A stretch of DNA of 57,380 nucleotides from Candidatus Hydrogenedentota bacterium (GTDB lineage: Bacteria; Hydrogenedentota; Hydrogenedentia; Hydrogenedentales; JAGMZX01). Every line of letters starts with the position of its first letter. Positions within the stretch are counted from its first letter, which is position 1. This document shows, piece after piece, positions 20,944-27,964 of the stretch. The position numbers were made by a program, and so were the translations under genes. The stretch covers positions 1-57,380 of the forward strand of contig JAKQEQ010000106.1 in NCBI GenBank assembly GCA_029556545.1, written 5' to 3'. The notes beneath the pieces are model-generated. The model had not been told where the DNA came from, did not search any database, and saw only the letters and a program-made list of their open reading frames with translations.

Positions 20944-21073
20944 TGTGCGAACGGCGGACGGAATGATAGGACAAAGTGCTTTCGACACCCCAACAGGGTT
21001 CGCGACGCCGCGAAGAAGCAGTTGAAGCGGTAAGGTCGGACGATGCGTCATAGGCAAATTCAAAGGAGCAAGA

Positions 21074-21259
21074 GTGCCGCGCAAGGCACGAGAACTGATT
21101 CGGGACTTGGGAAAAGCGGGTTTTGTTAATCGAGGAGGCAAAGGAAGCCATGGAAACTTTGTCTACCCGAGAGTTCGGAAGCCTGTTTCAATTTAAGGGA
21201 ACGAGGGCGATGACGCCTTGCATTATCAAGAGAAGGCGGTTAAATTAGCAATAAAGTGA
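21074..21259 (+). pseudogene. HicA-type toxin gene killed by an in-frame TAA
   Basis: From GTG 21074, with AAAGGAG upstream, the frame reads VPRKARELIRDLGKAGFVNR and then GGKGSHGNFVYPRVRKPVSI, followed by TAA at 21194-21196. Without any shift it then continues GNEGDDALHYQEKAVKLAIK to TGA. This matches HicA proteins of the PRKxRELIRDL type, where a Ser normally follows VSI/VTI, so TCA to TAA explains the break. The catalytic His region (GSHGNF) is upstream of the stop. A truncated HicB-like frame follows after nine bases. Confidence 0.75.
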
Positions 21260-21268
21260 GGCCCGGCC

Positions 21269-21367
21269 ATGAGCAAGGGCGACAAATACGTCAAAATCGT
21301 GGAGTGGTCTGACGAAGACCAGTGCTTCATCGGCAGTTGCCCGGAGCTGTTTTACTGCACTAAATGA
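21269..21367 (+). pseudogene. Truncated HicB-type antitoxin fragment
   Basis: The 32-codon frame reads MSKGDKYVKIVEWSDEDQCF and then IGSCPELFYCTK. This is the N-terminal strand region of the long HicB class (EWSxEDQCFxGxCPxLF). The remaining 80-100 residues, including the C-terminal DNA-binding part, are missing. Its stop TGA overlaps the ATG of the next hicA by four bases, so a deletion has fused the dead pair to the intact one. Confidence 0.7.
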
Positions 21368-21558
21368 AAGTCCACGAACTCATAGCCCTGATCGAAGCGG
21401 ACGGCTGGTTTCAGGTTCGAACGAAAGGCAGCCATCATCAGTTTCACCACCGGACGAAAAAGGGAACAGTCACAGTGTCTGGAAAGCCAAGTGTCGATGT
21501 GCCGCCGGGGACACTGAACAGTGCGCTAAAGCAAGCGGGTCTAAAGAAGCAGGAGTGA
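21364..21558 (+). CDS. hicA: HicA-type mRNA interferase toxin
   Basis: This 64-residue protein is an intact HicA/YcfA: MKVHELIALIEADGWF, then the catalytic-His motif TKGSHHQFHH near residues 20-29, and VTVSGKPSVDVPPGTLNSALKQAGL. HicA has a double-stranded RNA-binding-like fold and cleaves mRNA, and HicB neutralises it. It overlaps the preceding HicB fragment by four bases and is seven bases from hicB. The pair ends at a degenerate attC-like sequence, suggesting it arrived as a cassette. Confidence 0.88.
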   Translation: MKVHELIALIEADGWFQVRTKGSHHQFHHRTKKGTVTVSGKPSVDVPPGTLNSALKQAGLKKQE

Positions 21559-21565
21559 ATTTCCG

Positions 21566-21781
21566 ATGCGATACTTAGTAATTGTTGAGAAAGGCCCTAC
21601 CTCCTATGGAGCCCATGTTCCTGATCTCCCTGGTTGTGTCGCCGCCGGGGAAACGAGAGAGGAAGTCCTGGCGCTGATCCGCGAAGCCATTGAGCTTCAT
21701 CTGGAAGACCTTAAGCAGGAGGGTCAGCCGATTCCGGCTCCTGCATCAACCAGTGAAATTGTGGAAGTTGAAGCCGCGTAA
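21566..21781 (+). CDS. hicB: HicB-type antitoxin (short form)
   Basis: This 71-residue protein has the HicB core: MRYLVIVEKGPTSYGAHVPDLPGCVAAGET, then EEVLALIREAIELHLEDLKQ and a Pro-rich end. The partial RNase H-like fold is complete, but there is no C-terminal ribbon-helix-helix or HTH, as in the shorter HicB class. GAATTTCCGATG has only a weak ribosome site, so translation may be coupled to hicA. The stop codon lies in the attC-like sequence that follows. Confidence 0.88.
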   Translation: MRYLVIVEKGPTSYGAHVPDLPGCVAAGETREEVLALIREAIELHLEDLKQEGQPIPAPASTSEIVEVEAA

Positions 21782-21837
21782 CAACTCGCTCCAGCCGACG
21801 CCAAAAGGCGGCGCGGCTGAGCGGCAAGAAGTTGGAA
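21776..21837 (+). other. Degenerate attC-like site after hicB
   Basis: Starting at the hicB stop, GCGTAAC is followed by a hairpin-forming GCTCCAGCCGACGCC / GGCGGCGCGGCTGAGC pair and ends at GTTGGAA. Compared with the attC core consensus (RYYYAAC and GTTRRRY), each end has one mismatch. Weaker than the site at 23367-23440 but similarly placed. Confidence 0.4.
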
Positions 21838-21887
21838 CGCAAGAGTCTATCTATGCAATAAAGGTACGGAACGGCCCCTGGAGAACC

Positions 21888-21950
21888 GCTAAGTCGGGCA
21901 GCCACGACATCCGGACGATCCAGGAACTTTTGGGCCGTTAGGACGTGAAG
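21888..21950 (+). pseudogene. Remnant of a tyrosine recombinase (integron/Xer-type box II)
   Basis: One frame reads SHDIRTIQELLGR, then TAG (21939-21941), then DVK. This fits the box II segment G(Y/H)DIRTVQELLGHKDVKTT of integron integrases and XerC/D-like recombinases, with Lys to amber and His to Arg changes. No other part of an integrase is visible nearby, so only about 20 codons survive. It ends 20 bases before the first 218-bp repeat. Confidence 0.55.
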
Positions 21951-21970
21951 ATCGCCAGGACTGATCCCGA

Positions 21971-22188
21971 CATTCGTGTTCGGTTAAGGCCACTGTCGGC
22001 GTCTTTCTGGATTCCCGCTTCCCGCTTCCGCGGGAACAGGTTTCGCGGGAATGACGGAAAAGAGGGTCAAGTACGCCCCCGGCGTCATTCCCGCGAAAGC
22101 GGGAATCCAGGCCAAGTCGTGCAAGCGAGCAAGACGTATGCGTTATGTGCTTGAAGAGGTTGTACGCAGCGGCTTAACCGATCACGAA
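21971..22188. repeat. 218-bp direct repeat, copy 1, with nested palindrome
   Basis: The sequence from CATTCGTGTTCGGTTAAGGC to about CTTAACCGATCACGA is repeated at 23689-23906 with constant offset (1718) and no net indel. Its core (22007-22110) is a nested palindrome: CTGGATTCCCGC pairs with GCGGGAATCCAG, and TCGCGGGAATGACG pairs with CGTCATTCCCGCGA. Such ATTCCCGC/GCGGGAAT elements are known as dispersed repeats in other bacteria. Confidence 0.9.
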
Positions 22189-22441
22189 TGCTGATCCCGA
22201 TGTCTTCAACAGGAGCAGGAAGGGTGTTAAGAGCCCCGCGGACGACTTGTAGAGGAGATAGGACGGTATCTTATACAGAAACCATATACCCCCTGCGCCA
22301 ATCGCAAAACATGGCCTGGTGCTGTGTATCTACGCGGTTCACGCAGAGTTTGGCGGAGGGGTCTTATGTCGCGATGTCGTGGCCCAAAGGTGCTATGAAA
22401 AAACCATATAGCATTGCTAGATGCACAAAGGAGATGAATAG
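22189..22441. other. Leader spacer before the restriction gene
   Basis: The 250 bases are less GC-rich than the chromosome. No frame is convincing. AAAGGAG sits ten bases before the downstream ATG. CATATACC- and CATATAGC-type boxes near 22284 and 22405 could be promoter parts, but spacing to a -35 is unclear. Confidence 0.3.
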
Positions 22442-23371
22442 ATGGCAGTTCCAGATTACCAAAGTTTGATGCTGCCGCTTCTTCAGTTTGCGGAGAGAAA
22501 AGAGAGCGAAACCTCAACCAGTGAAGCCGTGGAAACACTGGCAAAGGAATTCAGCCTTACCGAAGATGATTTAGCGGAGATGCTCCCAAGCGGAATACAA
22601 TCAACCTTCGTTAACCGCGTTGGGTGGGCTTCGACCTACATGAAAAAGGCCGGGTTACTTGAAGCAACACGAAGGGGATTCTATCAGATCACCGACCGAG
22701 GGAAGGAGCTCCTTAAGAGACAGCCCAAGACAATAGATGTAAGACTTCTAAAGCAGTATCCGGAATTTCTTGAATTTCAGCAACTCAAGGGAACAAGAAG
22801 TGGCGGTAAGGTCGTCGAATCAAAAGGAATTTCAGAAGTATCAACTGCGACTCCATCAGAAGCACTAGAGTCGGCGTATGAGAACTTACGTGATGAGTTG
22901 GCTGATGAATTGCTCGGCAAACTAAAGAAGACTACACCATCCTTCTTTGAGCGGGTCGTGGTTGAGCTTCTGGTCAAGATGGGTTACGGGGGCTCTCGTG
23001 TTGATGCAGGAAAAGCCATCGGCAGGAGCGGTGACGGCGGTATTGATGGGATCATAAAAGAGGATAAACTCGGGCTTGATGTTGTCTATATACAGGCGAA
23101 ACGCTGGGACAATAACCCGGTTGGGCGGCCTGATGTTATGCAATTTGCAGGGGCTCTTCAGGCTCAGAGAGCAAACAAGGGCATCTTTATTACTACTTCC
23201 AGATTCACTGATGATGCTCGTAGTTACGTTTCCCAGATTGGCAGTAAGATCGTTTTAATTGACGGCGAACAACTGACCAGCTTGATGATTGAACATGATG
23301 TTGGCGTATCCACGGTTTCATTGTATCCGGTGAAAAAGGTTGATAGCGATTATTTTGAAGAGAGCATCTAA
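22442..23371 (+). CDS. Mrr-type restriction endonuclease
   Basis: This 309-residue protein has an N-terminal winged-helix Mrr_N-like domain (residues 1-90, YQSLMLPLLQFAERKE to KELLKRQP). Its C-terminal Mrr catalytic domain has GDGGIDGIIKED followed by DVVYIQAKRW, the PD-(D/E)xK variant with Gln-x-Lys. Mrr proteins cut methylated or otherwise modified DNA, often foreign. Codon use is AT-richer than neighbouring chromosomal genes, indicating transfer. No methyltransferase accompanies it, as expected for a type IV enzyme. Its TAA stop lies inside an attC site and it is flanked by two 218-bp repeats. Confidence 0.9.
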   Translation: MAVPDYQSLMLPLLQFAERKESETSTSEAVETLAKEFSLTEDDLAEMLPSGIQSTFVNRVGWASTYMKKAGLLEATRRGFYQITDRGKELLKRQPKTIDVRLLKQYPEFLEFQQLKGTRSGGKVVESKGISEVSTATPSEALESAYENLRDELADELLGKLKKTTPSFFERVVVELLVKMGYGGSRVDAGKAIGRSGDGGIDGIIKEDKLGLDVVYIQAKRWDNNPVGRPDVMQFAGALQAQRANKGIFITTSRFTDDARSYVSQIGSKIVLIDGEQLTSLMIEHDVGVSTVSLYPVKKVDSDYFEESI

Positions 23372-23440
23372 CAGCCGCATCAACTCGGACGGGCAATTCC
23401 GCTGCGCTCTATTGCCAGCCGGTTATGCGGAGCGTTAGGC
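23367..23440 (+). other. Integron attC site
   Basis: The 74-base element starts at the stop codon of the Mrr gene with ATCTAAC (a perfect RYYYAAC, counting the A at 23366) and ends with GTTAGGC (a perfect GTTRRRY). Between them, CCGCATcAACTCGG pairs with CCGGTTATGCGG with bulges, and GGGCAAT pairs with ATTGCC. These are the core sites, arm symmetry and extra-helical bases expected of attC. A new gene starts 34 bases after it, as in cassette arrays. Confidence 0.75.
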
Positions 23441-23473
23441 CAGTTGAAGAAGCAGACCAGGAGGCAAGGAAAT

Positions 23474-23688
23474 ATGGAAAGAGTGCAAGTGCGACAAGTC
23501 ATCGCCAAGGATGGAGAAGTCCTGATCACGGGCTTACCCTACAAGAAGGGACAGGCCGTCGAGATCATTGTTTCCCCCCAAGGCATGACGCTTGCACCGC
23601 GCGCTTGTCTGACTGTGGGCCGCCTCCGCCGATCGGGGTTGATTGGCATGTGGCAAGACCGTCGCGACATTGACTATAGTTCGGTCTA
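23474..23688 (+). pseudogene. Antitoxin-like gene truncated by the second 218-bp repeat
   Basis: From ATG 23474, with AGGAGG upstream, the product begins MERVQVRQVIAKDGEVLITG and continues LPYKKGQAVEIIVSP and RRSGLIGMWQDRRDIDYSS. This resembles small VapB/AbrB-like or RHH-less antitoxins that end in a GLxGxWxDRxDI-SxxFARxLR motif. The expected C-terminal arginine-rich helix is replaced by sequence of the repeat beginning at 23689. The frame stays open into the repeat but the protein is no longer family-like. No toxin partner follows. Confidence 0.55.
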
Positions 23689-23906
23689 CATTCGTGTTCG
23701 GTTAAGGCCACCGGCGGTGTCTTTCTGGATTCCCGCTTCCCGCTTCCGCGGGAACAGGTTTCGCGGGAATGACGGAAAAGAGGGCCAAAGTCGCCCCCGG
23801 CGTCATTCCCGCGAAAGCGGGAATCCAGGGCAATTCGTGCAGACGAGGAAGAAGTGTGCGTTATGCGCTTGGAGACGTTATGCGCAGCGGCTTAACCGAC
23901 CACGAG
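23689..23906. repeat. 218-bp direct repeat, copy 2
   Basis: Nearly identical to 21971-22188, same orientation, with the nested palindrome at 23725-23828. It begins inside the antitoxin-like frame, so insertion or recombination at this element cut that gene. Confidence 0.9.
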
Positions 23907-24053
23907 TGGCTCGGTCTATGCACGTCAAGTGCGAGGATGTCGCCATCTTGCAGTGTTTGGAATTGAAGGCGCTTGTTAACACGATCCTGAACCTCCGCGG
24001 CAAACCGCCGATTCCTTGAACTCACGCACTGAAAAGCATAGGAGTCTGATTTC
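23907..24053. other. Short remnant between repeat and dehydrogenase
   Basis: A 33-codon plus-strand frame from ATG 23919 (MHVKCEDVAILQCLELKALV...) ends at 24019. It has no ribosome site and no recognised family. It may be the tail of another broken cassette gene. Confidence 0.25.
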
Positions 24054-27761: not shown

Positions 27762-27783
27762 TAGGGGAGAAAACAACATACCC

Positions 27784-27895
27784 GACCTTCGGGGCAGGGT
27801 GAAATTCCCGACCGGCGGTGACAGCCCGCGAGCGCTTCGGCGCAGGACCCGGTGAAATTCCGGGGCCGACGGTACAGTCCGGATGGGAGAAGGTA
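27784..27895 (+). promoter_or_regulatory. FMN riboswitch aptamer (RFN element)
   Basis: The sequence contains the conserved RFN blocks in order: CTTCGGGGCAGGGTGAAATT, CCGACCGGCGGTGACAGCCC, a variable hairpin, CAGGACCCGGTGAAATTCCG, GCCGACGGTACAGTC and GGATGGGAGAAGG. The terminal P1 helix pairs CCTTC (27786-27790) with GAAGG (27889-27893). It binds FMN and controls riboflavin genes in cis. The ribD reading frame begins 107 bases downstream. Confidence 0.97.
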
Positions 27896-27964
27896 TCGGG
27901 ACAGCCTGTCGGCTGTGCGCGGCGCGGAGCGTGTCGCGGCAGCGGGCAGGGGGTGCCGTGATCT

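Follow-up and report, generated by a model that had tools for sequence, protein, structure and literature searches.

Decayed integrons and co-oriented integrases are both already known, and the locus described here adds a further case. Where attC sites are clustered but have no integron integrase, IntegronFinder 2.0 uses the term CALIN (PMC9024848). Decay of intI is common: in one study, nearly one third of the intI genes were pseudogenes (PMC2426708), and it also occurs in Xanthomonas (PMC12444791). A co-oriented intI gene, i.e. one transcribed toward attI, is known in Treponema (PMC3607928), and an attI site immediately downstream of intI is known in archaea (PMC9668308). For Hydrogenedentota, we found no report of integrons in the searchable literature.

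We analysed a 57,380 nucleotide stretch of DNA, hereafter the window, from the genome of an uncultured Candidatus Hydrogenedentota bacterium (contig JAKQEQ010000106.1). The window holds two attC sites, 21776-21837 and 23366-23440, the second of which closes a gene for an Mrr-type restriction endonuclease. We suggest, with a probability of about 0.9, that the 23366 site is the attC ending an Mrr gene cassette, and that this cassette occupies the first position beside the attI-like region of a small, decayed integron, in which intI was co-oriented with the cassettes and which has, immediately 5' of it, a hicAB cassette ending in an attC of its own. The reading as a decayed integron is based on the structure and model score of the attC, a relic of intI, homology of the attI-like region, the boundary of the cassette and an empty site in a congener.

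Like a CALIN, for which at least two close attC sites with no intact intI nearby are needed, the window has two attC sites as identified by our own covariance model, on one strand at a distance of about 1.6 kb, both of them following a gene, in a genome with no intact intI. Unlike a CALIN, it still has a recognisable intI 3' relic and an attI-like region, and we therefore regard it as a decayed integron and not as attC sites of unknown origin. As in the integrons of Treponema and archaea, the 3' end of intI adjoins attI and the cassettes are on the intI strand; the difference is that intI is here reduced to about its last 40 codons, which are interrupted. With the intI pseudogenes of chromosomal integrons (PMC2426708; Xanthomonas, PMC12444791) the locus has in common that the integrase no longer functions and the cassettes remain, but it belongs to another phylum and its decay took the form of 5' truncation and insertion of a repeat element.

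Genomic setting

The locus is on an island that carries two copies of a short repeat element:

20944-24053: island of about 3.1 kb between an acetolactate-synthase-like gene and an aldehyde dehydrogenase gene
21971-22190: first 220-bp element, with inverted ends, which interrupts the intI relic and is flanked by a target duplication, CTGATCCCGA (21961-21970, 22191-22200)
23689-23908: second copy of the 220-bp element (90% identity between the two); target duplication GTTCGGTCTA / GCTCGGTCTA at 23679-23688 and 23909-23918

In a congener (G001), the two flanking genes (87% and 84% DNA identity) are approximately 96 bp apart and the island is absent. The G+C content is 52% for the island and 47% for the Mrr gene, against 66-67% for the flanking genes.

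About six elements of 200-220 bp were found in the genome, namely the pair in the window and those on contigs C81, C57, C134 and C100 of the same assembly (G000), with 10-bp target duplications. Their ends read CATTCGTGTTCGGTTAAG / CTTAACCGATCACGAATG, and the copies are 74-90% identical to the first one. They are probably non-autonomous transposons. The core of the 220-bp elements is a short repeat that is present at many more places in the genome.

The two copies in the window are in the same orientation and frame the Mrr cassette, and given their similarity they could be taken for a composite unit that moves Mrr together with its attC, like an integron mobilisation unit. This would need matching outer target duplications, and none were seen. 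Instead, a separate 10-bp target duplication flanks each copy, and the sequences that they interrupt differ, being the intI relic in one case and a small ORF in the other. In addition, other full copies occur singly in the genome, and the boundaries of the empty site are outside both repeats. Because of the separate target duplications we reject the repeats as the mobilising unit and consider this explanation highly improbable.

The attC sites

The decayed integron that we propose contains two attC sites, the first of them behind a toxin-antitoxin pair:

21364-21781, + strand: hicA-hicB toxin-antitoxin pair carried by the upstream cassette (Pfam HicA_toxin 1.4e-20, HicB_lk_antitox 1.5e-14)
21776-21837, + strand: second attC site, overlapping the hicB stop codon
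23366-23440, + strand: attC site at the end of the Mrr gene, member of a conserved attC family found in 43 GTDB contigs

Both sites overlap the stop codon of the preceding gene. The cores of the 23366 site, R'' ATCTAAC (23366-23372) and R' GTTAGGC (23434-23440), pair with each other and are the perfect RYYYAAC and GTTRRRY cores named in the preliminary description. The L arms, GCATCAACTCGGAC and GCCGGTTATGC, pair as well and leave three bases unpaired on one arm; in canonical attC sites bases are likewise left unpaired on one L arm. The bottom strand folds into a single long hairpin with the three extra bases bulged (fold z -2.24). The bulged arm symmetry noticed earlier is recovered both by a scanner and by folding. 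The TAA stop codon of the ORF at 22442-23371 falls within R'', and the nearest downstream ATG is at 23474, 34 bases past the site, exactly as first described. In the second attC, 21776-21837, both bulged bases of the L'' arm are present, and its bottom-strand fold is more unusual (z -3.71).

The scanner looks for attC cores plus bulged arms, and hits were counted at a score of at least 14. As a control, five attC sites were recovered in a class 1-type cassette array (L071) with estX, aadA2, cmlA1, aadA1 and qacL. The window had only two sites at this threshold: 23366-23440 scored 17 and 21776-21837 scored 15. When the window sequence was shuffled, 1.15 Mb of it gave 6 such hits, none of them above 15, and the 23366 site is thus above chance.

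We also built a covariance model of our own, as distinct from that of IntegronFinder, using 19 seed attC sites from resistance cassettes and environmental sites. None of the seeds came from the genome studied here or from the conserved family of the 23366 site. An earlier alignment of trimmed attC sites (A2), without loop insertions, was left out of model building. With filters off, the best match in the window was 21776-21837 (32.6 bits, E 8e-7). It was followed by 23366-23440 (25.4 bits, E 1e-4), a score for which the model is not fully independent, as part of its central loop is also present in two of the seeds (L057 and L044). The third-best score in the window, 12.7 bits, marks the noise ceiling. 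Another perfect-core pair, obtained in a strict core scan of the window, was dropped as it had no support from the model. When the model was run on the whole genome, 150 of 6168 candidates were scored and the 23366 site was missed, and the genome's attC count is thus a lower bound.

Inverted repeats are common after stop codons, and the fold of the 23366 site is by itself moderately unusual, as might be the case for a chance palindrome or a transcription terminator ending an ordinary chromosomal gene. Against this are both cores, the bulged arms and the model score, as well as homologous sites that are found in many phyla behind unrelated genes and next to neighbouring attC sites, and that recur in attC arrays with IntI. 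We give this explanation practically no weight. The segment 23366-23440 is a genuine integron recombination site joined to the end of a restriction gene, and the call of a canonical attC is upheld by the covariance model and by the conserved family elsewhere. The preliminary description would have given up this call if no model score above background and no integrase were found; the score is well above background, and it is the other half that applies, since an intact integrase was not found in the genome.

A search of Rfam gave no relevant match at the 23366 site. Elsewhere in the window, 27781-27898 is an ordinary FMN riboswitch (RF00050, 112.9 bits).

Directly 5' of the intact hicAB pair, at 21074-21367, there are degenerate hicA-like and hicB-like remnants, the former matching Pfam HicA with a score below the cut-off. 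A further attC site (40.4 bits) is found in the same genome in L077 (G000:C175, 2734-4089), where it overlaps the stop codon of a 433-aa FRG-domain gene. Contig C175 also has phage-morphogenesis-like genes on the strand opposite the FRG gene, and a phage tail protein is matched weakly on this contig.

Remains of the integrase gene and the attI-like region

Between the second attC and the Mrr gene we found:

21903-21970, + strand: first part of the intI relic, degenerate, reading HDIRTIQELLGR, an internal stop codon and then DVK
22201-22252, + strand: last part of the intI relic, degenerate, ending in VFNRSRKGVKSPADDL and a stop codon; the reading frame ends in the same way in L011 and L023
22253-22416, + strand: attI-like region with crossover core ATTG/CTAG and two copies of AAACCATATA (22279-22288 and 22401-22410)

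The relic corresponds to approximately the last 40 codons of intI, is truncated at the 5' side and is broken by a stop codon and by the first 220-bp element. In tblastn searches with the intact IntI of another genome of the phylum (G044), the first part alone gave an E value of 0.002 and the last part alone 0.25; with the flanks of the inserted element joined the E value was 2e-7, and the significance of this short relic depends on that joining. Of the functional intI gene of a complete integron, a degenerate 3' end alone remains.

The relic and the attI-like region are homologous to those of L011 and L023, with 74% DNA identity over the intI end and the attI-like region in L011, which is from another Hydrogenedentota genome. 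The attI core aligns in six other loci, among them the ATTG/TTAG-like cores of L011, L023, L035, L021 and L018. From this homology and the crossover core at the start of the cassette, the attI site is predicted to adjoin the first cassette. Within this region we saw no obvious sigma-70-type promoter.

The intI 3' end and the region downstream of it also survive before a gene in L011, L017, L021, L023, L035 and L089, which come from several phyla and in which intI is truncated or internally deleted. We looked for a left breakpoint common to the truncated copies and found none.

One could also imagine that isolated cassettes were placed at secondary, attG-like chromosomal sites by a foreign integrase, and that there was never a platform at this place. 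Insertion at attG sites has been described in work cited in PMC12444791, the genome has no intact IntI, and its third attC stands alone behind the FRG-domain gene on contig C175. However, the Mrr cassette is immediately preceded by an intI 3' end and an attI-like region, with a crossover core at the start of the cassette, and the order seen in the window recurs in L017, L011, L021 and L023. We find such an origin improbable and retain the decayed integron.

The Mrr cassette

The first cassette of this integron and the ORF behind it are as follows:

22417-23434 (approximate), + strand: Mrr gene cassette in linear form, beginning just past the G of the attI core and ending with the G of R'
22442-23371, + strand: gene for an Mrr-type restriction endonuclease, 309 aa (Pfam Mrr_cat 4.8e-37, Mrr_N 9e-32)
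23474-23688, + strand: first part of a small ORF from the ORF list, 3' of the attC and interrupted by the second 220-bp element; probable next cassette

The start of the cassette is expected to be the reverse complement of R'', GTTAGATGC. The window has GCTAGATGC at 22416-22424, with one change, and this stands at 22416, where the attI alignment predicts the start. With the start core at the predicted position, we place the Mrr cassette at approximately 22417-23434. The same test was exact in L017, L021, L023, L018 and L045; for L011 this was not so.

A close parallel is L017, from a Desulfuromonadales MAG (JARGFI010000076.1), which has the intI 3' end, an Mrr gene and an attC in this order on one strand. 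Its Mrr is 54% identical to that of the window over 308 aa, and the attC behind it is of the same type. L017 differs from the window in that it lacks the inserted 220-bp element and that the core at the cassette boundary is perfect (GTTAGCAT / ATGCTAAC). An Mrr with 77% identity is encoded in G056, where the match covers the ORF alone and there is no attC, indicating that the Mrr gene exists outside cassettes too. Three Mrr relatives with 51-55% identity were found on viral contigs, also without attC.

The Mrr_N and Mrr_cat domains bear out the earlier assignment to type IV restriction genes, and judging from these domains the protein presumably cuts modified foreign DNA. That the gene is an integron cassette is supported by its 5' boundary and the attI-like region, and by L017, where a homologous Mrr cassette follows an intI 3' end, and the host, first judged to be non-proteobacterial, belongs to Hydrogenedentota. 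Further features, not included in the preliminary description, are the intI relic with the attI-like region behind it, the second attC, and both of the 220-bp elements. The ORF at 23474-23688 had no match in Pfam or NCBIfam; in our own reading, it is antitoxin-like.

Distribution of the attC type

A BLAST search found sites 77-92% identical to the 23366 site in four other genomes of the same order, three of which (L036, L046 and L050) are named Candidatus Hydrogenedentota or Hydrogenedentes. A scan of GTDB genomes with a degenerate pattern gave 43 contigs, each with one attC of the 23366 type, whose names assign them to about 11 phyla: Desulfobacterota, Planctomycetota, KSB1, Bacteroidota/Ignavibacteria, Spirochaetota, Omnitrophota, Hydrogenedentota, Dependentiae, Pseudomonadota, Bacillota and Asgard archaea. 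It should be noted that these contigs are mostly from MAGs and could have been misbinned; those of Desulfogranum japonicum DSM 18378 and Desulfacinum hydrothermale DSM 13146 come from cultured strains. At the 20 positions left unconstrained by the pattern the commonest base averages 93%, and conservation fades at both cores. The ORFs 5' of these sites are mostly unrelated; we found three related pairs, one of which is the Mrr of the window and that of L017. Many of the 43 contigs have further attC sites on the same strand. This distribution looks like that of a shared cassette pool, and a previous report describes near-identical attC sites shared by distantly related archaeal and bacterial genomes (PMC9668308).

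Among the 11 loci with this attC type and an intI gene of known orientation, intI is broken in 6 of 7 co-oriented and 0 of 4 divergent cases (one-sided p 0.015), in a sample that is small and in which detection is biased toward the 3' end of intI. It is conceivable, but in our view doubtful, that in co-oriented integrons the last 40 or so intI codons and attI are kept as a working unit (a landing site and perhaps a cassette promoter) after the rest is lost, and that this unit passes from phylum to phylum along with a single common attC type, using integrases in trans.

Loss of the integrase and implications

The assembly of the genome is 96% complete, and 0 of its proteins scored above the IntI family cut-off. 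The two best proteins in this search read as XerC/XerD-like. An intact IntI was found in 1 of 68 genomes of the phylum (G044), and here intI likewise points toward its attC sites. Fragments of the intI 3' end are present in G045, G018 and G061, and G021 has an open frame of 141 codons.

A cassette gene usually lacks a promoter of its own. Following established integron biology, IntI would have bound the folded bottom strand of the attC and recombined it at G/TT with attI or another attC, by which the Mrr cassette would be inserted or excised. Decay has cut intI down to about its 40 last codons, which hold a stop codon and a 220-bp element. As no intact IntI was found in the genome, the array is unable to move unaided; with the platform dead in cis it would now be static. 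The attC sites look intact enough that an integrase in trans could mobilise the array, and the use of CALIN attC sites by an integrase in trans has been argued for (PMC9668308).

Integron remains that include an intI relic and attI are now placed in Hydrogenedentota. The locus is a worked example of integron decay, in which a single platform with two cassettes was hit by two elements independently, and for which a congener shows the empty site. Our observations suggest that the cassette pools of many phyla are linked by one attC type, which occurs with integrases in either orientation, and that restriction and toxin-antitoxin genes can thereby circulate between phyla.
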